Positions 3,800 to 62,066 of a stretch of DNA of 64,000 bases are shown here, piece by piece. The DNA lies in the NCBI GenBank assembly GCA_964017185.1, contig OZ024877.1:1342006-1406005 (forward strand). Reading direction: 5' to 3'. The translations under genes and the position numbers were made by a program. The notes below the pieces were generated by a model. It saw only the letters and a program-made list of their open reading frames with translations. It did not search any database and was not told the origin of the DNA. The number at the start of each line of letters is the position of its first letter. Position 1 is the stretch's first letter. This stretch comes from Rugalucina vietnamica. Its lineage: Eukaryota > Mollusca > Bivalvia > Lucinida > Lucinidae.

Positions 3800-4490
3800 G
3801 ACAGAGTGTTCATGTATAAGGCGGACCAATCTAAGCCTCTAACCGGACAGAATATTCATGTATCAGGGCGCACATGAAGACAGAGTAATCATGTATAGGG
3901 CGCACCAGAAGACAGAGTATGCATGTATAAGGCGCAATAGACAACAGAGTATTCATGTATATGAGAGTATACATGTAAATGGTGCACAAGACGACATTGT
4001 ATTCATGTATAACGCGCACCAGGCGACACAGTATTCAAGTAAAGGGCACACCAGACGACATATTATTCATGTTAAGGGCGCACCAGACGACAGAGAAGTC
4101 GTGTATAGGGCGCACCAGACGACAAAATATTCAAGTATTAAGCGCACCAGAGGACAGAGTATTCATGTATAGGGCACACCAGAATTCAGAGTATTAATGT
4201 ATAGGGCGCACCAGAGTACATGGAATTGATGTATAGAACGCACCAGACGACAGAGTATTCATGTATAGCGTGCATAAAAGGACAGCGTATTCGTGTATAA
4301 AGCGCATCAGAGGACAGCGTGTTCATGTATAGGGCGCACCAGATGACAGAGTATTCATGTATATGATGCACAAGGACATAGTGTTTATGTATAAGGCGCA
4401 CCAGAGGGCAGAGTATTCGTATATAGGACGCAGAGTATTCGTATATAGACGACTAATTATTCATATTCGTATAGGGCTTACCAGAGGACG
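3800..4490. repeat. 32-bp minisatellite (left arm)
   Basis: About 21 tandem units with consensus around CAGAGTATTCATGTATAGGG followed by CGCACCAGACGA. They vary by a few bases and one-base length changes. Open frames here are by-products of the repeat. Mirror: 47207-47897. Confidence 0.92.
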
Positions 4491-13232: not shown

Positions 13233-15229
13233 TAAGGCCTGTTTACACGTTCACGATTTTTTTGCAACGGTGCCGCTACGATTCGCCACGGTTTGTAAAA
13301 GCGTAGTGTACATTGGTGATTCGTAGTAGAACCGTGGTGAATCGTGGTGAATCTTGTTGAATCGGGAAACTCCACGGTAGCGCTACGGAAGTTTTCTGAA
13401 TCTGAAGCTGAATAGTTTACTGGTGACACGCCAAATGACATTATTTCACCAGGGGGTTCGGATGGGGGGGTGGGAAATTAGTCCCTTGAACGCACGAGTG
13501 AAGCGAACTTGGACACACAGTCATCAGACATTTCAGCAGAGGAGACAAGTGAATCAGGGAGGTCATTCCAGTCCCTGATAGTCTGTGGAAAGAAACTACT
13601 TTTGTACGCTTCTTTGCTAGCTGAAGGTATCTGAAAAGCCAAAGAGTGTTGATTTCTACAACGCCTATTCTTTGGGATAAGGTCATCTGTGGGTATTCTG
13701 GCTTTACCCTTTAGACCTTTGTATAGCAATATAAGTCTACTATCCTTCCTCCTTTTCTTAAGAGATTCCCATTTCAGTTGACCTAAAATGCCAGTCATGC
13801 TCCCAGTTTCAAAAACATAATTTCCCGTCACAAACCTTGCCGCACGATTTTGGACCTTTTCCAGTTCTTCCTGGAGACAATGAGTGTGAGGGTCCCAAAC
13901 TGAGCTTCCATATTCCAAGACCGGCCGCACCAGTCCTTTATAAGCTGCTTCTTTCACATCTGGGGGACAAGAATACAAATTTCTCCTCAAGAATCCGAGA
14001 GTTCTGTTAGCCTTTGTACAAACATTGGAAATATGAGTATTCCATTTCAAATCATTTGTGATAGTTACACCCAGGTATTTTATGCTTTCAACGTTTTCCA
14101 GTAAAGTGCCCTCAAGGGTGTAGTTAGCCTGTATCTTACTAGACCGTTTATTTGTCAGCTGCATCATGTTGCATTTGACGGGTTGAAATCTCATTCCCCA
14201 TTTCCTAGCCCAACTGCCTAAACGATCAATGTCTCTTTGAAGTTTCAATGTATCCTCTTCATTCTTGATTTCACGATAGCAAACACAATCATCAGCAAAG
14301 AGTCTTATTTCAGACTCGATGTCTGCTGAGATGTCATTTATATACAAGGAAAACAGCAAGGGGCCGAGAACGGTGCCCTGAGGGACACCCGACACAACTG
14401 GAGCCCAATCCGATTTAATACCATTAACCACTACCCTTTGTTGTCTGAAACAAAGGAAAGCATTTATCCAATTCAGTGTTGTTCCACCTATTCCATAGCT
14501 GAACAATTTGCTTTTAAGGAGTTCATGGGGAGGAGTATCGAAAGCCTTTTCAAAATCGAGTATAAAAGTGTCGACCTGGCCTTTTTTGTCTAAGATTTTG
14601 GCCCAGTCATTTATCACTGTAGTCAACTGAGTTTCACAGCTATGCCATTTCCTAAATGCGTGTTGCCTGTCCGACAGGAGTTCATGTTCATCAAGATGGG
14701 CCATAATATTTGAGCATACAATATGTTCAAGAAGCTTACAAGGAATGCATGTCAAAGAAACAGGGCGGTAATTGCGGGCAAGTGACCTGTCACCCTTCTT
14801 AAACAGGGGGCAAATATTAGCAAGAGACCATTCTTTAGGAATTTCACCTGTATCAATTGACTGCTGGAAGAGATGGGCGAATACCGGCCCTAATTCCATA
14901 GCCAGTTCCTTTAGGACTCTGGGATGAAGCTCATCAGGCCCTAAGGCTTTAGACGGGTTTAGACCTTTGAGAAGTTTGGTCACCCCTTCCTTTGTAAACT
15001 TTTTAAAACATTCGCGTCGAATCGTGGTGGTAATTTGGCGTGGCCTAATGCGTAGCGAAAACGTAGCGTAAACGAGTTTATTCGTACTGACGTCGTAGCT
15101 ATCTATATTCGCGTCTATTCGTTAGAGATCGTAGCCATTCGTGGAATCTTTGACACCACGACCATGAGGAATCTAGGTGAATATTGGTGAATCGTAGAGA
15201 AAATCGTGAATGTGTAAACGGGTCTTTAT
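13233..15229. mobile_element. CGTGGTGAATC word-array element split by a LINE (left arm)
   Basis: Ends are inverted: TAAGGCCTGTTTACACGTTC at the left, and AATGTGTAAACGGGTCTTTA at the right. Internal degenerate words (ATCGTGGTGAATC, CGTAGCGCTAC) occur on both strands. The LINE at about 13445-15005 sits near its centre of symmetry: the sequences just outside the LINE (CACGCCAAAT and ATTTGGCGTG) are complementary. Mirror: 36463-38459. Confidence 0.75.
13478..14983 (-). CDS. LINE reverse transcriptase, 5'-truncated (left arm)
   Basis: An open frame of 501 residues encodes the RT domain and C-terminal region of a non-LTR retrotransposon of the Jockey/CR1 group. It would copy its own RNA at a nicked target. 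Visible motifs: NYRPVSLTCIPCKLLE (71-86), ILDFEKAFD with the first catalytic Asp (141-149), SGVPQGTVLGPLLF (198-211), and FADD (229-232), the catalytic Asp pair in the Y/F-x-D-D box. The C-terminal tract with LVRPVLEYGSSVWDP is typical of these elements. The N-terminal endonuclease (APE type) and any ORF1 are missing, so this is a 5'-truncated, non-autonomous insert; its frame is nevertheless uninterrupted, which argues for youth. No clear poly-A tail. The same protein is encoded identically at 36709-38214. Confidence 0.9.
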   Translation of the reverse strand: MTKLLKGLNPSKALGPDELHPRVLKELAMELGPVFAHLFQQSIDTGEIPKEWSLANICPLFKKGDRSLARNYRPVSLTCIPCKLLEHIVCSNIMAHLDEHELLSDRQHAFRKWHSCETQLTTVINDWAKILDKKGQVDTFILDFEKAFDTPPHELLKSKLFSYGIGGTTLNWINAFLCFRQQRVVVNGIKSDWAPVVSGVPQGTVLGPLLFSLYINDISADIESEIRLFADDCVCYREIKNEEDTLKLQRDIDRLGSWARKWGMRFQPVKCNMMQLTNKRSSKIQANYTLEGTLLENVESIKYLGVTITNDLKWNTHISNVCTKANRTLGFLRRNLYSCPPDVKEAAYKGLVRPVLEYGSSVWDPHTHCLQEELEKVQNRAARFVTGNYVFETGSMTGILGQLKWESLKKRRKDSRLILLYKGLKGKARIPTDDLIPKNRRCRNQHSLAFQIPSASKEAYKSSFFPQTIRDWNDLPDSLVSSAEMSDDCVSKFASLVRSRD

Positions 15230-25530: not shown

Positions 25531-26160
25531 AACAGGTAAACAGAGTGGACCTTCAAAAGGGCATTAAAAAACTATGGTTCACTTTATTTGGCATGTAATG
25601 ACAGAAAGGCTTTTTTCACTTCCTCTGACCAAAGTCGGTATACACTTTGGTCATGTCAGAATGTATGCGATGCCTTATCCTATCTCCTTGATAATATTTA
25701 TATTAGATTTGGGACCAAGTTATACAGACAAATTGTTGGAATTCCGATGGGTACAAATTGCGCACCTCTCGTAGCTGATTTATTTTTATACTGCTACGAA
25801 AGAGATTTCATGGATTCTCTTAACCATGATAATCAAGCTGATGTTATCGAGGCTTTTAATTCCACATCTAGGTACCTCGATGACCTTTTGAACATTGACA
25901 ACCCTTATTTTGAAGGTATGGTCAATCAAATTTATCCACCTGAACTTCAGTTGAACAAAGCCAATATCACAGATACCGAAGCCCCCTTTTTAGATCTACA
26001 TCTTTCTGTTGCAAATGGATTTGTTTCTTCTAAAATTTATGATAAGCGCGATGACTTTGATTTTGATATAGTAAATTTTCCTTTTTTGGATGGTGACGTT
26101 CCTCGTCGTGCTTCTTATGGTGTATACATTTCGCAACTTATTAGGTTTGCTAGAGTCTGC
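25531..26160. other. Unique spacer of the giant palindrome
   Basis: These 630 bp have no inverted partner. They encode the middle of a reverse transcriptase whose C-terminal part continues into the right arm. The first usable codon of that reading frame (25540) lies only 10 bases inside the left junction, so the retroelement is cut at, or almost at, the fold-back breakpoint. Confidence 0.92.
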
Positions 26161-36462: not shown

Positions 36463-38459
36463 ATAAAGACCCGTTTACACATTCACGATTTTCTCTACGA
36501 TTCACCAATATTCACCTAGATTCCTCATGGTCGTGGTGTCAAAGATTCCACGAATGGCTACGATCTCTAACGAATAGACGCGAATATAGATAGCTACGAC
36601 GTCAGTACGAATAAACTCGTTTACGCTACGTTTTCGCTACGCATTAGGCCACGCCAAATTACCACCACGATTCGACGCGAATGTTTTAAAAAGTTTACAA
36701 AGGAAGGGGTGACCAAACTTCTCAAAGGTCTAAACCCGTCTAAAGCCTTAGGGCCTGATGAGCTTCATCCCAGAGTCCTAAAGGAACTGGCTATGGAATT
36801 AGGGCCGGTATTCGCCCATCTCTTCCAGCAGTCAATTGATACAGGTGAAATTCCTAAAGAATGGTCTCTTGCTAATATTTGCCCCCTGTTTAAGAAGGGT
36901 GACAGGTCACTTGCCCGCAATTACCGCCCTGTTTCTTTGACATGCATTCCTTGTAAGCTTCTTGAACATATTGTATGCTCAAATATTATGGCCCATCTTG
37001 ATGAACATGAACTCCTGTCGGACAGGCAACACGCATTTAGGAAATGGCATAGCTGTGAAACTCAGTTGACTACAGTGATAAATGACTGGGCCAAAATCTT
37101 AGACAAAAAAGGCCAGGTCGACACTTTTATACTCGATTTTGAAAAGGCTTTCGATACTCCTCCCCATGAACTCCTTAAAAGCAAATTGTTCAGCTATGGA
37201 ATAGGTGGAACAACACTGAATTGGATAAATGCTTTCCTTTGTTTCAGACAACAAAGGGTAGTGGTTAATGGTATTAAATCGGATTGGGCTCCAGTTGTGT
37301 CGGGTGTCCCTCAGGGCACCGTTCTCGGCCCCTTGCTGTTTTCCTTGTATATAAATGACATCTCAGCAGACATCGAGTCTGAAATAAGACTCTTTGCTGA
37401 TGATTGTGTTTGCTATCGTGAAATCAAGAATGAAGAGGATACATTGAAACTTCAAAGAGACATTGATCGTTTAGGCAGTTGGGCTAGGAAATGGGGAATG
37501 AGATTTCAACCCGTCAAATGCAACATGATGCAGCTGACAAATAAACGGTCTAGTAAGATACAGGCTAACTACACCCTTGAGGGCACTTTACTGGAAAACG
37601 TTGAAAGCATAAAATACCTGGGTGTAACTATCACAAATGATTTGAAATGGAATACTCATATTTCCAATGTTTGTACAAAGGCTAACAGAACTCTCGGATT
37701 CTTGAGGAGAAATTTGTATTCTTGTCCCCCAGATGTGAAAGAAGCAGCTTATAAAGGACTGGTGCGGCCGGTCTTGGAATATGGAAGCTCAGTTTGGGAC
37801 CCTCACACTCATTGTCTCCAGGAAGAACTGGAAAAGGTCCAAAATCGTGCGGCAAGGTTTGTGACGGGAAATTATGTTTTTGAAACTGGGAGCATGACTG
37901 GCATTTTAGGTCAACTGAAATGGGAATCTCTTAAGAAAAGGAGGAAGGATAGTAGACTTATATTGCTATACAAAGGTCTAAAGGGTAAAGCCAGAATACC
38001 CACAGATGACCTTATCCCAAAGAATAGGCGTTGTAGAAATCAACACTCTTTGGCTTTTCAGATACCTTCAGCTAGCAAAGAAGCGTACAAAAGTAGTTTC
38101 TTTCCACAGACTATCAGGGACTGGAATGACCTCCCTGATTCACTTGTCTCCTCTGCTGAAATGTCTGATGACTGTGTGTCCAAGTTCGCTTCACTCGTGC
38201 GTTCAAGGGACTAATTTCCCACCCCCCCATCCGAACCCCCTGGTGAAATAATGTCATTTGGCGTGTCACCAGTAAACTATTCAGCTTCAGATTCAGAAAA
38301 CTTCCGTAGCGCTACCGTGGAGTTTCCCGATTCAACAAGATTCACCACGATTCACCACGGTTCTACTACGAATCACCAATGTACACTACGCTTTTACAAA
38401 CCGTGGCGAATCGTAGCGGCACCGTTGCAAAAAAATCGTGAACGTGTAAACAGGCCTTA
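36463..38459. mobile_element. CGTGGTGAATC word-array element split by a LINE (right arm)
   Basis: Mirror of 13233-15229. Confidence 0.75.
36709..38214 (+). CDS. LINE reverse transcriptase, 5'-truncated (right arm)
   Basis: Encodes the same 501-residue Jockey/CR1-type RT as 13478-14983, residue for residue, with FADD at 229-232 and no endonuclease domain. Perfect agreement over 1.5 kb shows that the copies arose by duplication of the whole arm, not by two separate insertions. It begins within the LINE body, and the ATG used is simply the first in the open frame. Confidence 0.9.
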   Translation: MTKLLKGLNPSKALGPDELHPRVLKELAMELGPVFAHLFQQSIDTGEIPKEWSLANICPLFKKGDRSLARNYRPVSLTCIPCKLLEHIVCSNIMAHLDEHELLSDRQHAFRKWHSCETQLTTVINDWAKILDKKGQVDTFILDFEKAFDTPPHELLKSKLFSYGIGGTTLNWINAFLCFRQQRVVVNGIKSDWAPVVSGVPQGTVLGPLLFSLYINDISADIESEIRLFADDCVCYREIKNEEDTLKLQRDIDRLGSWARKWGMRFQPVKCNMMQLTNKRSSKIQANYTLEGTLLENVESIKYLGVTITNDLKWNTHISNVCTKANRTLGFLRRNLYSCPPDVKEAAYKGLVRPVLEYGSSVWDPHTHCLQEELEKVQNRAARFVTGNYVFETGSMTGILGQLKWESLKKRRKDSRLILLYKGLKGKARIPTDDLIPKNRRCRNQHSLAFQIPSASKEAYKSSFFPQTIRDWNDLPDSLVSSAEMSDDCVSKFASLVRSRD

Positions 38460-47206: not shown

Positions 47207-47897
47207 CGTCCTCTGGTAAGCCCTATACGAATATGAATAATTAGTCGTCTATATACGAATACTCTGCGTCCTATATACGAATACTCTGCCCTCTGGTGCG
47301 CCTTATACATAAACACTATGTCCTTGTGCATCATATACATGAATACTCTGTCATCTGGTGCGCCCTATACATGAACACGCTGTCCTCTGATGCGCTTTAT
47401 ACACGAATACGCTGTCCTTTTATGCACGCTATACATGAATACTCTGTCGTCTGGTGCGTTCTATACATCAATTCCATGTACTCTGGTGCGCCCTATACAT
47501 TAATACTCTGAATTCTGGTGTGCCCTATACATGAATACTCTGTCCTCTGGTGCGCTTAATACTTGAATATTTTGTCGTCTGGTGCGCCCTATACACGACT
47601 TCTCTGTCGTCTGGTGCGCCCTTAACATGAATAATATGTCGTCTGGTGTGCCCTTTACTTGAATACTGTGTCGCCTGGTGCGCGTTATACATGAATACAA
47701 TGTCGTCTTGTGCACCATTTACATGTATACTCTCATATACATGAATACTCTGTTGTCTATTGCGCCTTATACATGCATACTCTGTCTTCTGGTGCGCCCT
47801 ATACATGATTACTCTGTCTTCATGTGCGCCCTGATACATGAATATTCTGTCCGGTTAGAGGCTTAGATTGGTCCGCCTTATACATGAACACTCTGTC
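47207..47897. repeat. 32-bp minisatellite (right arm)
   Basis: Mirror of 3800-4490. Unit number and order appear unchanged, which is notable for a tandem array. Confidence 0.92.
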
Positions 47898-52982: not shown

Positions 52983-53118
52983 ATGGAGTGGGATAGCCGA
53001 CGGTGTCTACTGGTAGCTTTGTTAGTTTGGACTATAACCGGCGTCAGTTCCTACCTTACACCACCCCCAGCAACAAACAGACCGCCGCACATCATTTTTA
53101 TGGTCGCCGATGATCTAG
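52983..53118 (+). CDS. Arylsulfatase (ARSB/ARSI/ARSJ-like), exon 1
   Basis: First coding exon of a secreted or lysosomal sulfatase, an enzyme that hydrolyses sulfate esters, probably of glycosaminoglycans or similar glycans. The chosen ATG (52983) lies in a good initiation context (ACAACATGG) and is followed at once by a signal peptide: basic DSRR, then the hydrophobic run CLLVALLVWTITGV, with likely cleavage near residue 23. An in-frame upstream ATG at 52947 would add 12 residues ahead of the signal. PPHIIFMVADD (residues 34-44) is the conserved first sulfatase strand; D43 and D44 should bind the active-site calcium. The exon ends with a phase-1 donor G|GTAAGC followed by a short GTCT microsatellite. 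Exons 1-3 together encode the first 100 residues; full-length members have about 500, so the rest lies beyond 64000. The ARSB, I and J subfamilies cannot be separated on this much sequence. Confidence 0.92.
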
Positions 53119-54825: not shown

Positions 54826-54937
54826 GTTGGAATGATGTTGGATGGCACAATCCGGACATGTACACGCCTAACCTGGACAGTCTAGCACGAGACGGGGTCA
54901 TTTTAGACTCGTCATATGTCCAACCACTTTGTAGCCC
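54826..54937 (+). CDS. Arylsulfatase, exon 2
   Basis: Bounded by a CATTTTCAG acceptor and a CC|GTAAGT donor. It continues the exon 1 frame as [21 protein letters not shown] and ends with YVQPLCSP. Cys81 (counting from the 52983 start) is the first residue of the sulfatase signature C-x-P-S-R and should be converted to formylglycine, the catalytic nucleophile, by the formylglycine-generating enzyme. GW(N/D)DVG and TPNLDSLA are strongly conserved in the family. The intron is phase 2, splitting the proline codon of CSPSR between exons 2 and 3. Confidence 0.95.
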
Positions 54938-55833: not shown

Positions 55834-55885
55834 ATCAAGAAACTGTTTTATGTCCGGGTACTATCCATACCATACCGGAATGCAG
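55834..55885 (+). CDS. Arylsulfatase, exon 3 (founder of the 51-bp array)
   Basis: A 52-nt micro-exon after a TATGTTGCAG acceptor. It completes the split proline and encodes SRNCFMSGYYPYHTGMQ, i.e. the S-R of the catalytic C-S-P-S-R motif (Arg85 supports the formylglycine and metal) and the following G-x-Y-x-x-x-T-G-x-Q helix segment found in ARSB-type enzymes. It ends at a phase-0 donor CAG|GTAACT. The first intron bases (GTAACTCACTGTTTCATGTC) are already the beginning of the repeat unit that forms the array at 60284-61739. The next exon is not visible up to 64000. Confidence 0.93.
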
Positions 55886-55915
55886 GTAACTCACTGTTTC
55901 ATGTCGGGGTATTAG
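55886..55915 (+). repeat. First, interrupted unit of the exon-3-derived array
   Basis: GTAACTCACTGTTTCATGTC followed by GGGGTATTAG matches the first 30 bases of the 51-bp unit. The unit is broken by the transposon beginning at 55916 and resumes at 60284. Confidence 0.9.
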
Positions 55916-56269
55916 TATGGAAGCGTATAGGTACCCCCCTGATATTCATTTCTCGTGATATATTTATGTCGAGAAACAATAATATTATGGTTTATCATAC
56001 CTCATATAAATTTGCCATGTTAAACTCCCACAGGCCGGAAGGTGAAAAATTCTTATTATTACCCAACATACTATATAAATAGAAATAAAACATTTCATGC
56101 TGTCTTTTAAACAATTTCAGTTAAAGCCAGTTTAAACCAGTTTCAATTAACTGTTTCATGTCATGTGACGAACTGTTTCATGTGCAACAGTTTTTACTGT
56201 TTCCCAGTCATGTGACATGCTTTGCATGCTTTTATACTGCCTCGCCATACCTGCAAATATTGTCAAAGA

Positions 56270-56690
56270 AAAAGTAATCAAAAGCAAACAACCAAACAAA
56301 TGAATCAAACAAACAAACAAAACATGATCAAACAAACAAAAACAAGCAAACAAACATAAAATAAACAAATCCAACCAGGCATTAATCACAAATAAGCACA
56401 TGAAATAATCTAAGAAAACAATAAAAAAAACTAACAGTAACTTTAAACAAACAACAAACAAACAAGCAAAACAAACAAAAACAGAATAAAACATAACAAA
56501 CAAACAAACAAGCATACAAACAAAAAATGACTCAAACAAACAAGCAGAATAAACAAAATTAGTAAGATAAGCAAACAAGTCGATCAACTTAAGTGCAAAA
56601 TAAACAAGCAGAACTTACAAAAAAAACAATAAAATAGTAAACAAACAAGCAAATCAGAATCAAACAAGCAAACATGTTCTATACAACAAA
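56270..56690. repeat. (CAAA)n-type low-complexity tract
   Basis: Over 400 bp of CAAACAAA-rich sequence with few Gs. The long minus-strand open frame across it is compositional. Confidence 0.9.
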
Positions 56691-56814
56691 ACCAGGATAT
56701 AAACATGTTCCAACCATATTTTCAGTTTTAACATTTAATGTTACAACCAGTCTTGTCATAATATAGTATGTGTCTGTTACGAAGTTAATAATGAACGTTG
56801 AGTTGGGTAATAAA

Positions 56815-56989
56815 ACAACTATTTCAAACCTTCCTGTGTGACAGTCATAACTATCACCCCTCGGAACTGTGGATGACCCGATGAACTGTTGCCCTCGGCC
56901 TTCGGCCTCGGGCAACAGTTCATCGGGTCATCCACAGCACCTCGGGGTGATAGTTTTGACTGTTACAAAGGAAGGTATGAAATAGTTGT
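56815..56989. repeat. Hairpin palindrome with GGCCTTCGGCC centre
   Basis: Arms ACTATCACCCCTCGG and GATGACCCGATGAACTGTTG pair with their complements across a GCCTTCGGC loop. Member of the short fold-back class. Confidence 0.85.
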
Positions 56990-57111
56990 ATACTATCACC
57001 CTGCGATAATTTCGACTATCGCATGCACATAAAATATGCGCGTACAGTTCGTTTTTCTAAAAGGTTTTATCTCAAAGAAGGTACCTTCAAAACACATAAT
57101 TTTAATATAGG

Positions 57112-57252
57112 GATCAACCATGGTTTTCAGTGTTCAAACATTCGATGGGTCACGAGGAAGGTGTTTGAACACAAGGCCGCAGGCCGCGTGTTCAAACACC
57201 TTCCGAGTGATCCAGCGAATGTTTGAACACTGAAACAAACCATGGTTGATCG
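57112..57252. repeat. Hairpin palindrome with GGCCGCAGGCC centre
   Basis: Outer arms GATCAACCATGG/CCATGGTTGATC and inner arms GAAGGTGTTTGAACAC/GTGTTCAAACACCTTC. The words TTTGAACAC and GTTCAAAC recur again at 57418-57500. Confidence 0.85.
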
Positions 57253-57752
57253 CTATTCTTGCATTTCCACACTAACCCACTTAAAATCTCATGAAAATAA
57301 CATTAACAACGTAAAACACTAACCCAAAGCCGCAGAGCTTCTTCAACGTCGGCCATTTTGTTTCTATAAAACACATGACGTCACGTCGCATTGACCAATG
57401 ACGTCGGCCAAAACCCATGTTCAAACGGCACGTGAATTTCATGATTTGAACACGGGTTTTGCTGTTTGAACACGGCTTTCGGCCAATCGAAAACGGCTTC
57501 AAACAGCTATGCGCATAGATATCTATGCAAGAATAGAAGTTTGATAAAATTAAGTATAACAAACATATAAAATTATTTTGGTAGTAGAAAATGGGCTGAA
57601 TTGACGTTTAAAATCGTGAATAGCGATCAGTTGTTGTGATGACGTTACGTAAATGCGAAATAACGTTACGCAACGTCGCGCCAAAATTGGTATTACGCAT
57701 TCAAATAAAAAGACATTTTTTTCGATCTTCATCAATTTCGGTATGATACAAT

Positions 57753-57891
57753 AAATACAACACTGCTGAGAGGGTGATAGTAAGAATTTTCACCCTTCGA
57801 AAATGATTACCAACCTAGGCTTCGCCTCGGTCGATAATCATTTCCTCAGGGTGAAAATTCTTACTATCACCCTCTCAGCAATGTTGTATTT
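57753..57891. repeat. Hairpin palindrome with GGCTTCGCCTCGG centre
   Basis: Arms GAGAGGGTGATAGTAAGAAT and ATTCTTACTATCACCCTCTC are perfect complements, with AAATACAAC/GTTGTATTT outside. Confidence 0.87.
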
Positions 57892-58144
57892 ATATAATAT
57901 CGCTACATTATATCGCTATCTTTTTGTCGAGAAAATGCTATAATTTATTATGAACTCGATATACTTTAACGTGTTACGATATACTTTTATTAAGTTTAAC
58001 ACCATATTTAATGCGTAAAAAATTCCATCACATAATAACTTTTTACAACATAGCCGTTACTGGTCATTATTTTGGTGTCATATTCAATAAATTATTTCAT
58101 CGCAATAATCTTGGCGGGAATATTGCGTCACATGGTTGGGGGCA

Positions 58145-59426
58145 TTTAACCAGAGGACCAATGGTCCTGTAAAGGCCCACCTGAGATCTGAGATATAAAC
58201 AACTTGACTAGAATGGTCATATACATGTATATAGCTCTAAGGCAGGGTCAGAATAACCCTAGTTATATAGCTCCAAGGCAGGGTAAGAATAACCCTAGGG
58301 CCAATTTCGTTTTCAAAATCATAAACATTCGGTTCATTTGCTTATTACCTGAAAGTTTTTCCTTTCAGTATGACATTAAACATTTTTGTATATGTGACCT
58401 AAGTTGGCCTTGCCTTTTAATCTGTCAAGGTCATCACAGGGTCTTGATTTATAAAGACATTGTAGTACTCTAGTCCCAATTGCTACATGTCAAGTTTCGT
58501 CACAATAGGTCTAGCGATTCCGGAGAAGTTTTAAAGGGTTTTCACCATATATGAGCATGGTTGCCATCTTGATCATTTGACCTAGATCATTTATAAACAT
58601 ATTAGTCCCCCCTTTATATAGATGTTTCTTATAAAATTTGACTTGAATTGGCCAAAAGGTTTAAGAGAAGAAGATCCTTGAATAATATAGCAATATACAT
58701 GAATATTGCCCCTGGGTAGGGGCAGAACATTCCCTGGGGTCCGAATTATTTACAGAATCTTTTTAAAAATCTTTAAGGCGATACTTCTGTGATGGTTCTT
58801 TTTGCTATATGTTTTGGCGTTTAAAATGTATGTGCTGTTGGCGCCTGAAAATTAAAGTATGTTTAGGTGACTGAGTGATCACCTATTTGGAAAATAGCTA
58901 CTCATTCGATTTACGATATTTTTCATGGTATAAGTACCTGATTGTTAATTAAGTTTTTTCCCGCCTCGGTATTTTGAGTGGGAATCTTTTTCTGATTGCG
59001 CCTTTTCCTGATCTTTGCATACTTATTGTACGTTTTCAATCAATTAGCCCATTTCCTGCAAGATTTGCCCTTCAAATGATATTTTGACAATTTTTCTCAT
59101 TGAAATGCATGAGCAATCTATGTTGACCTTGCCGTAAAATAGGCCAACGTCATCCCGGGGTCATGATTTATGCAAACTTTCTCCGGTTCTGAAGAAGGTT
59201 TTTGATATTAAAAGCCATGCGGCCATCTTGGTCATGTGACCTGGACCATTTATAGAAACTTTCGTTCCCCCTTCCTAAGGATGCTCCACATGAATTTGGC
59301 TTTGATTGCTCTAGCAGTTACAGAGGAGAAGATCTTTGACATTGTTGACGAACAACGGAAGGACGGACGACGGAACATGGCCACCCTATAATCTCACCTT
59401 TTAAGCCTTCGGCTCAAGGTGAGCTA
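58145..59426 (-). mobile_element. AGCTCACCTGAG-family repeat inside the TIR element
   Basis: Starts with GAGGACCAATGGTCCTGTAA (compare GGAGGACAAATGGTCCTATA near 11381) and ends with the CCTTCGGCTCAAGGTGAGCT hairpin. It is interrupted by an RT-family 3' fragment at 58770-59038. Confidence 0.75.
58770..59038 (+). mobile_element. RT-family 3' fragment outside the palindrome
   Basis: Matches about 26920-27190 (GGCGATACTTCTG, TTTCATGGTATAAGTACCTG, TTTTTCTGATTGCGCCTTTT). It ends near the family's common 3' terminus, so the family is active genome-wide and not palindrome-specific. Confidence 0.8.
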
Positions 59427-60050
59427 TAAACACTGCCGTTTCTTAATATTACAAAATAGATATCTAATATATTGCCATAAAAACACGAATTTCCGCAAAA
59501 AATACAGCATTATATTGTCAAAATTATTGTGTAATATTAAAAACTAAATTAATACATTGCGCAGATTACCACATAATTTTAATGACAAAAACTATTACGA
59601 GACATTTTATAACGGTGCGGATAGTAAAGTGAGATAAATAATACGTGGAAACGTAGTATTTATCTCAATATTACAAGATTTTTATGGTGCAATAAGTTAT
59701 TTTATTTTATACTTAGCAGTGAAATTAATGTATATCAAAAATGGATAAAACTGATATTTTCACTGCAGAATTGATATTGATATTTTCACTAGTAATTGAT
59801 ATCAGCCGATATTTTCAATGTAGAGTTTGGATTACTTCTGACGTTTCCATTCACTTCAGAAATTCAAATGCCTATAACTCCGTTATTTACGAACGAAAAC
59901 ATAAAGTGTGGGTATTCATTTTCTTAGTTAGAACGTTAGGAACAATGTGGTACCAAAATTATTTGTGTTTTCAAAAGTTTTTGGTTTTTGCATTTTCACT
60001 GCCTGCTTTGTGAATAGGAAAATGCCCGTGTATTGTATAAAATAAAAAGA
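59427..60050. other. AT-rich interior of the TIR element, no gene
   Basis: Repeated TGATATTTTCACT phrases (59750-59830). A 90-codon open frame at 59741-60013 has no recognised motif and is not called. Confidence 0.45.
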
Positions 60051-60208
60051 AAATTTACTTTTTATCGGTAAATACCAAATATATTTCATCTCGTGACTTG
60101 AAAACATCTAAATTTTCACTCGTGCTACGCACTCGTGAAAATTTTGATGTTTTCAACTCACTCGATGAAATATATTTGGTATCCACCTCAAAAAAAGTAA
60201 ATATCCTC
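60051..60208. repeat. Hairpin palindrome near the TIR element's right end
   Basis: Arms TACCAAATATATTTCATC/GATGAAATATATTTGGTA and AATTTTCACTCGTG/CACTCGTGAAAATTTT around a GCTACGC centre. Confidence 0.85.
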
Positions 60209-60283
60209 TATTTACGTTTTAATGACAAAAAAGTATCTCGAGAAAATAATATTAGGGGGGACCTATACGCTTCCATATATTAG

Positions 60284-61739
60284 TTATCCATACCGGACTA
60301 CAGGTAACTCACTGTTTTATGTCGGTAAATTATCTATGCCATAGCGGACTACAGGTAATTTACTGTTTTATGTCGGGATATTATCCATACCATACCGGAC
60401 TACAGATAACTCACTGTTTTATGTCGGGATATTATCCATACCATACCGGACTACAGGTAATTCACTGTTTTATGTCGAGATATTATCCATACCATACCGC
60501 ACTATAGGTAACTCACTGTTTTATGTCGGGATACCATACCAGACTACAGGTGATTCACTGTTTAATGTCCGGGTATTATCCATACCATTCCAGACTACAG
60601 GTAAATCACTGTATTATGTCGGGATATTATCCATACCTTACCGGACTACAGGTATTTCACTGTTTTGTGTCAGAATATTATCCGTACCATACCGGACTAT
60701 ATGTAAATTACTGTTTTATGTAGGCATATTATCCATACCATACTTGACTACAGGTAATGCACTGTTTTATGTCGGGATATTATCTATACCATAGCGGACT
60801 ACAGGTAATTCACTGTTTTGTGTCAGAATATTATCCGTACCATACCGGACTATATGTAAATTACTGTTTTATATCGGGATATTATCCATACCATACCGGA
60901 CTACAGGTAACTCACTGTTTTATGTCAGGATATTATCCATACCATACCGGTCTACAGGTAGTTCACTGTTTTTTGTCGGGATATTATCCATACCATACCG
61001 GACTACATGTAACTCACTGTTTTATGTCGGGATACTATCCTAACTATACCGGACTACAGGTAACTCACTGTTTAATGTCGGGATATTATCCATACCATAC
61101 CGTACTACAGGTAACTCACTGCTTTTGTTGGGATATTATCCATACCATACCGGACTTCAGGTTTCTTCACTGTTTTATCTCGGGATATAATCTATACCAT
61201 ACTGGACTACATGTAACTCACTGTTTTATGTTGGATTATTATCAATGCCATACCGGACTACAAATAATTAACTGTTTTATGTCGGGGTATTATTCATACC
61301 ATACCAGACTACAGGTTACTCTCTATTCAATGTCGGGATATAATCTATGCCATACCGGACTAAAAATAACTCACTGACAGGTAACTCACTGTTTTATGTC
61401 GGGATATTATCTATACCTTACCGGACTACAAGTATTTCACTGTTTTATGTCGGGATATTATCTATACCTTACCGGACTACAAGTATTTCACTGTTTTATG
61501 TCGGGATATTATCCATACCATACCGGGCTACAGATAACTCGCTGTTTTTTGTCGGAATATTATCCATACTATATACCAGACTACATTTAACTCACTGTTT
61601 TATGTCGGGATATTATCTATTCCATACCGGACTACAGATTACTCACTGTTTTATGTCAGGAAATTATCTATACCAAACCAGACTACAGATAACTCACAGT
61701 AATATGTCGGGATATTATCCTAACTATACCGGACTACAG
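60284..61739 (+). repeat. 51-bp tandem array derived from sulfatase exon 3 and its donor
   Basis: About 29 head-to-tail units, most exactly 51 bp: GTAACTCAC followed by the 42-nt exon 3 tail (TGTTTTATGTCGGGATATTA ... GGACTACAG). Translated, each unit reads VTHCFMSGYYPYHTGLQ, against SRNCFMSGYYPYHTGMQ in exon 3. The repeat is therefore the last 42 nt of exon 3 plus the first 9 nt of intron 3. Most unit junctions keep CAG|GT. The unit is 17 codons, so the frame is kept across long runs (one open run spans 60757-61377). A few units are shortened or out of phase (near 60520 and 61370), and a two-unit segment is itself duplicated (60656-60757 and 60809-60910). Confidence 0.95.
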
Positions 61740-62066
61740 GTATTTTTTTTTCAACAGAGAACTTTAATGTACTCTTAAATCCAATGTCAGCCCTATTGGC
61801 TGTTTTCGTCCATCAACAATTCCAAAGCTACTTCTCGCTTAATAATAATAATATAATAATATAAATAGCTTGATTGTAAGAAGCACATCGAGGTCATGGC
61901 TTTTATACCTTGTTGTACTTATCAATAGTCAAATATAGATAATATAATTGGTAACAGGACGCCATAATACTGTTGTGTACTATTGAAAATTGATAATTGT
62001 TCATATAATATATAAGACAAAAATTAAACATTTTTGGGATTGATATTTTTATCATTTATGGGGGAT
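61740..62066. other. Intron 3 sequence, no exon recognised
   Basis: Directly after the array comes a pyrimidine-rich acceptor-like stretch (TATTTTTTTTTCAACAG, ending about 61757). The following frame (RTLMYS then stop) is not sulfatase, so I do not call an exon. Remaining sequence is AT-rich. Confidence 0.5.

Follow-up and report, generated by a model that had tools for sequence, protein, structure and literature searches.

The window analysed here is a 64,000-nucleotide stretch of the 1.09-Gb genome of the bivalve Rugalucina vietnamica (GCA_964017185.1, contig OZ024877.1, called C9 below, positions 1,342,006 to 1,406,005), and the element under study is a 51-bp tandem array (array A) at the boundary of exon 3 and intron 3 of a predicted sulfatase gene. 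Array A is very probably an intronic minisatellite of the 'mirage' type described in lancelets, which was seeded at the exon edge and is removed together with intron 3. The original prediction had taken the array for a series of in-frame splice donors able to lengthen the protein by whole blocks directly after the formylglycine site, and had named an exon-seeded neutral repeat as the alternative. The latter fits the results best. The observation itself is real; its function was most likely misread, and the kind is already known. The features concerned are as follows.

55834..55885, plus strand: sulfatase exon 3, 52 nt, SRNCFMSGYYPYHTGMQ; its end is the probable seed of the array.
55886..55915, plus strand: the 30 nt with which the unit next to exon 3 begins; they contain an in-frame TAG (55913-55915) and end in the left 6-nt copy of the target duplication.
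55916..60277, no strand assigned: insert of 4362 bp with terminal inverted repeats TATGGAAGCGTATAGGT and target duplication TATTAG, splitting array A.
60278..61742, plus strand: remainder of the 51-bp array, 28 complete units, with AG|GT at 17 of 29 junctions.

The window's gene (R1) was compared with R2 (C9:1.653 Mb), R3 (C9:1.2145 Mb), R4 (C10:8.475 Mb) and the more distant relatives R5 and R6 (C10:21.05 Mb and C10:21.02 Mb). Tandem Repeats Finder reports array A at 60288-61742 (period 51, 28.4 copies, score 1552), and alignment of the window array gives 28 complete units, the consensus of which keeps the exon phase. The automatic search for unit boundaries produced inconsistent splits in diverged copies, and a fixed-shift comparison was used thereafter. 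By this comparison, 44 nt of the unit resemble the tail of exon 3 and the other 7 nt the beginning of intron 3, with exon homology starting at intron position +8. The predicted anatomy, an exon end together with its donor, is therefore borne out; the proposed split into 42 and 9 nt is off by two bases, which fit on either side. Translated in the frame of exon 3, the consensus reads VTHCFMSGYYPYHTGLQ. Its 44-nt exon part differs at 5 positions from exon 3 of the window and at 1 position from exon 3 of R3, so either the array preserves an older state of exon 3 or the window exon changed later. The claim that most units keep CAG|GT is true, but barely (16 of 29 junctions), and AG|GT is lost in 12.

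The number of units, predicted as about 29, is confirmed, whereas their direct adjacency to the exon does not hold in the window, where only 30 nt of the first unit adjoin exon 3 ahead of the insert. Consequently, every donor after the first sits more than 4 kb from exon 3, beyond the insert. On the other hand, R2 carries an empty site at the position of the insert and an unbroken array directly after the exon, from which it follows that the ancestral array started right at exon 3. In R3, too, the array is contiguous with exon 3. The arrays at these two loci are diverged from that of the window (88 percent match in R2 and 79 percent in R3), and this recurrence in diverged form means that array A is not a chance pattern.

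Read from exon 3 past the first donor, the frame yields VTHCFMSGY and then TAG, in the window as well as in R2; that is, it closes after 9 codons. Only complete units free of indels entered the counts of changes; the window contributes 23 of its 28, R2 27 of 32 and R3 13 of 24. Distinct nonsynonymous/synonymous/stop changes number 36/14/3 in the window, 37/16/3 in R2 and 17/11/3 in R3, compared with 37.0/12.0/4.0, 38.8/12.7/4.5 and 20.7/8.9/1.4 by random placement, and no significant departure from random placement was found in any of the three arrays. The divergence at codon positions 1, 2 and 3 is 0.089, 0.099 and 0.080 in the window, where it is even across the three, and 0.052, 0.069 and 0.060 in R2. 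There is thus no clear coding constraint on the units of array A, and this outcome of the comparison of synonymous with nonsynonymous change, which the original prediction had proposed as a check, is what a neutral repeat predicts. In addition, no protection of the donors in array A is seen, the conservation of the AG|GT columns ranking 39 (window), 37 and 44 of 51. For the window copy, a coding extension is rejected on the read-through stop, the counts of changes and the codon-position divergence.

Array A comprises 28 complete units in R1, 32 in R2 and 24 in R3. R1 and R2 have 43 unit variants in common, compared with 24.7 expected, together with two whole non-consensus units at neighbouring places, which indicates that array A is older than the R1/R2 split. 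The R3 array is little above expectation in shared variants (24 vs 20.3 with R1 and 26 vs 19.9 with R2). In R4, exon 3 is followed by no more than an incomplete second copy; no array was found after exon 3 in R5 or R6, or after exon 6 in R5.

A second array of the family (array B) has a 53-bp period and lies at the exon 6 donor, downstream of the window, its unit being 48 nt of exon plus GTGAG as judged by eye. Tandem Repeats Finder gives 76 copies in R1, 36 in R3 and 28 in R4, and R2 has the array by a DNA match over about 10 kb. Because the period is 53, array B cannot hold the frame unit by unit, yet it has reached these copy numbers. In the window's gene, it places 34 perfect CAGGTGAGT sites within one intron, and AG|GT is kept in 62 of 73 junctions. 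The complete units number 35 in R3, 27 in R4, and 74 and 70 in the two arms of a palindrome that contains R1; this difference between near-identical arms suggests a recent change in copy number. The arm copies lie outside the window, at C9:1418226-1422329 and C9:1313548-1317439.

A third array (array C), with a 107-bp period and 12.4 copies, repeats the acceptor boundary of intron 1 and exon 2 in R3. As an array it occurs in R3 only, with single matches of 68 to 100 bp at five other places. R4 additionally has a 25-bp array in the intron behind the 53-bp array, one that does not itself start at an exon. Its unit is similar to the exon 6 end with the donor, and 11 instances of ACAGGT were counted over the stretch looked at. 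Among the periods 51, 53, 107 and 25, only 51 keeps the frame, so the multiple of three on which the predicted reading leaned is correct for array A but is not a trait of the family. From their distribution, arrays A and B appear to predate the separation of R1-R4, and array C to have arisen later, in R3 only.

Outside the sulfatases, the genome was searched for three CAGGTRAG sites 20-50 nt apart, the counts being overlapping matches and not arrays. The triple pattern gave 538 matches, compared with 80 for the reversed pattern, and control octamers at the same spacing gave 344 (CAGTGRAG), 111 (its reverse), 89 (CAAGTRGG) and 57 (its reverse). At a spacing of 40-52, the donor pattern gave 385 matches and its reverse 21. 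Counted by eye on C1 and C2 to 58.4 Mb, the arrays number approximately 12 for the donor pattern, 7 for CAGTGRAG and 1 for CAAGTRGG. Three of the 12 donor-pattern arrays (L041, L042 and L043) were fetched, picked with a bias for coding-like units, and each begins at an exon-like end. The exon at L041 is SLC23-like (Pfam PF00860, E 1.1e-7, above the cut-off; PDB SLC23A1 7ytw, E 1.8e-10), while L042 has a Tudor match below the cut-off (E 0.0019) and weak PDB matches to SH3 proteins. The intron part of the units at these three loci is 3 to 7 nt. The fixed-shift comparison places the start of homology at +8 in array A and +4 at L042 and found no start at L041; in array B and at L043 it gives +3 and +9 (the donor index of L043 being one base early), for which +6 and +8 were read by eye. 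Within the 284 kb covered, eight array families, grouped by eye, have a period of at least 20 and at least 10 copies; three of them, array A included, span a splice junction. When arrays of at least 5 copies are counted, the figure is 3 of 12.

Several of these results bear on readings other than a spliced-out minisatellite, and some weigh against it. Each of the three A arrays shows a slight, non-significant excess of synonymous changes (P 0.30, 0.18 and 0.26), and codon position 1 is the least diverged in R3 (0.067/0.097/0.102). In R3, no stop interrupts the read-through for 177 codons, and in-frame CAG|GT is found there at +108 and +125 codons. The window array has stop-free in-frame runs of up to 187 codons from one AG|GT site to another. 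Open frames of this kind are expected, since the exon-like sequence began without stops. It is possible that the R3 read-through, or an internal exon composed of units of the array, may sometimes be used. The AG|GT columns of array B show modestly raised conservation in R1 (ranks 14 and 18 of 53, one for each arm) and R3 (rank 7 of 53), though not in R4 (rank 32 of 53). Finally, three junction-spanning arrays in one gene family are more than a position-blind process makes comfortable. The R3 frame, the slight synonymous excess and a period that holds the frame speak for a ladder of donors that lengthens the sulfatase by 17-residue blocks beside the formylglycine site, and human UBC offers a case of tandem AG|GT sites used in frame, according to the part of PMC10809524 considered here. 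Nevertheless, such a ladder is highly improbable in view of the TAG that closes the frame of the window and R2 after 9 codons, the 4.36-kb insert that precedes all later donors in the window, the lack of significant codon constraint, the loss of AG|GT at the junctions noted above, and the sister-array periods that are not multiples of three; for the window copy, the predicted lengthening of the protein fails on the first three of these points. Maintenance of the donor arrays as U1-binding clusters, or as decoy splice sites that regulate the processing of long introns, could draw on the perfect sites and well-kept junctions of array B, but the donors of array A are unprotected and the copy numbers differ widely among paralogues, and we consider it very improbable. 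It is more improbable still that array A is an assembly artefact: the window lies inside a palindrome whose arms are 99.6-99.9 percent alike and which may itself be a join error, but the units are diverged, and diverged copies of the array at R2 and R3 make an artefact unlikely.

A further proposal is that the donor itself seeds the duplication, with breakpoints approximately 3 to 7 nt into the intron and arrays arising in many genes through a process tied to splice sites or transcription. This is compatible with a mirage and would add a cause to it. In favour of this proposal, the intron part is only about 3 to 7 nt long in five donor arrays, which belong to four separate genes or families (array A and L042 by script; array B, L041 and L043 by eye), the triple donor pattern exceeds all five rearranged octamers and, at a spacing of 40-52, the reversed pattern, and three of the eight array families cross a splice junction. 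However, the pattern counts are of overlapping matches, and the arrays seen by eye (about 12, against 7 and 1) make the excess over CAGTGRAG small; the share of junction-spanning families falls to a quarter once arrays of at least 5 copies are counted; the outside loci were chosen as coding-like, a choice biased towards short intron parts; array C sits at an acceptor and has a long intron part; and real donors are common, so seeding without regard to position would strike donors too. Donor seeding is rather unlikely. The broader form of the idea, in which 5' splice sites seed genome-wide donor arrays with periods of about 51-58 that line up donors by the dozen after exons and now and then contribute in-frame sequence or new introns, is likewise doubtful.

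Based on this weighing, an exon-seeded minisatellite removed with intron 3 is retained as the best explanation, and its history may be outlined. A tandem duplication spanning the end of exon 3 and the start of intron 3 (44 and 7 nt, respectively) would have placed a second copy just within the intron. Because the original donor was left in place, this copy would be intronic and little would be lost, and since that donor is still the first after exon 3, the array would be tolerated and presumably neutral in fitness. Slippage or unequal exchange may then have expanded the array to approximately 30 units, and gene duplication would have carried it to the paralogues. The insert would have landed in the first unit later, and array and insert would be spliced out together with intron 3 through use of the first donor.

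The host gene was delineated by tblastn with a human ARSB query and by translation, with the exon edges checked. Two further exons lie ahead of exon 3.

52983..53118, plus strand: sulfatase exon 1, which ends at the donor CTAG|GTAAGC and is drawn from the first ATG noticed in frame, a guess at the start codon.
54826..54937, plus strand: sulfatase exon 2, from tblastn and translation; its 3' end falls inside the CSPSR signature.

The peptide of the hand-joined exons matches PDB 1fsu (ARSB) with E 6.6e-37 and Pfam Sulfatase PF00884 with E 5.8e-21, and the CxPSR signature is present as CSPSR, spread over exons 2 and 3. By these matches the gene is arylsulfatase B-like (ARSB-like).

The palindrome containing the window has its axis near 25847 and a spacer of about 0.6 kb; its arms align in a piece of 43.0 kb at 99.88 percent and one of 10.9 kb at 99.63 percent. 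It implies that the sulfatase gene exists in two mirror copies, the second outside the window. The palindrome is either a recent inverted duplication or an assembly join. A 32-bp tandem array, also present in R2 (near C9:1663682), is found at 3846-4432 and 47265-47852 of the window; it lies approximately 5 kb ahead of sulfatase exon 1 and might mark an untranslated exon. The mirror-image open frames at 13481-15121 (minus strand) and 36571-38211 (plus strand) have, by eye, the look of a reverse transcriptase of the long interspersed nuclear element (LINE) type. Upstream of R3, at C9:1190035-1205005, lies a very long, near-uniform 52-bp array, pieces of which match at 96-98 percent. A search with the molluscan haemocyanin domain (PF14830) gave no match, a result that does not establish its absence; the repeats have a molluscan look.

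A probable mirage-type minisatellite thus occurs in this sulfatase family, three of whose splice junctions carry arrays, and further arrays lie elsewhere in the genome. Together, these form a natural series (no array, partial copy, short array, long array and array split by an insert) in which the origin of junction duplications can be studied, along with the way the spliceosome settles on one among many like donors and a possible contribution of the arrays to intron gain. The family also illustrates that a period which is a multiple of three is weak evidence for coding use. With this recurrence at several family junctions and in other genes, the interest of the case stays moderate.

The original prediction knew of no comparable case in a sulfatase. 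This stands for sulfatases, as no sulfatase minisatellite across a splice junction was found in the literature searched, most of the searching not being sulfatase-specific; in a paper on variants of human ARSB, the part considered brings up minisatellites solely as DNA prone to breakage. It does not stand for the kind, and array A is a probable mirage without a sulfatase precedent in that literature. Searches on junction repeats in molluscs and bivalves and on recursive splicing gave nothing closer than mirages and the other systems compared here, each in those parts of the cited reports that bear on it. The tandem dual-specific AG|GT sites of human UBC (PMC10809524) are likewise regularly spaced, in frame and within a tandem repeat. 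However, whole coding monomers are in use there, in contrast to a 17-codon exon tail without significant codon constraint here, and an open frame leading from the exon into the units is absent from the window and R2, though present in R3. In intron gain by tandem duplication (potato RdRp, PMC4974935; fission yeast, PMC3629103), splice motifs are similarly duplicated, in potato also over an intron-exon boundary, but a new intron results, whereas here an existing intron is lengthened. The internal tandem repeats of human segmental duplications (PMC2812944) agree with our arrays in their exon-intron boundary site, recent paralogues and variable copy number; there, RNA reveals novel introns or retention of the repeat, whereas the present arrays are known from DNA alone.

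The closest counterparts are the mirages of lancelets (PMC3087553; PMC3902484), which, in the portions of these reports drawn on here, are boundary-spanning tandem repeats in Adh3, the globins BflGb6 and BflGb9, troponin C and PGBD5. Their units measure 10 to 160 bp, lie at either boundary, contain AG/GT in many cases and are unstable in length, somatic instability being reported for the Adh3 mirage, and splicing is apparently undisturbed, as judged by RNA. The present arrays differ in their genes (a sulfatase family and others), in their size (23 to 76 copies in arrays A and B by Tandem Repeats Finder, compared with 3 and 6 in BflGb6) and in that regular splicing, indicated by RNA in lancelets, is here a deduction. 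Length variation is also seen in arrays A and B, between paralogues or palindrome arms of one assembly. As in the lancelet mirages, the unit crosses an exon-intron boundary, and many but not all units keep AG/GT.

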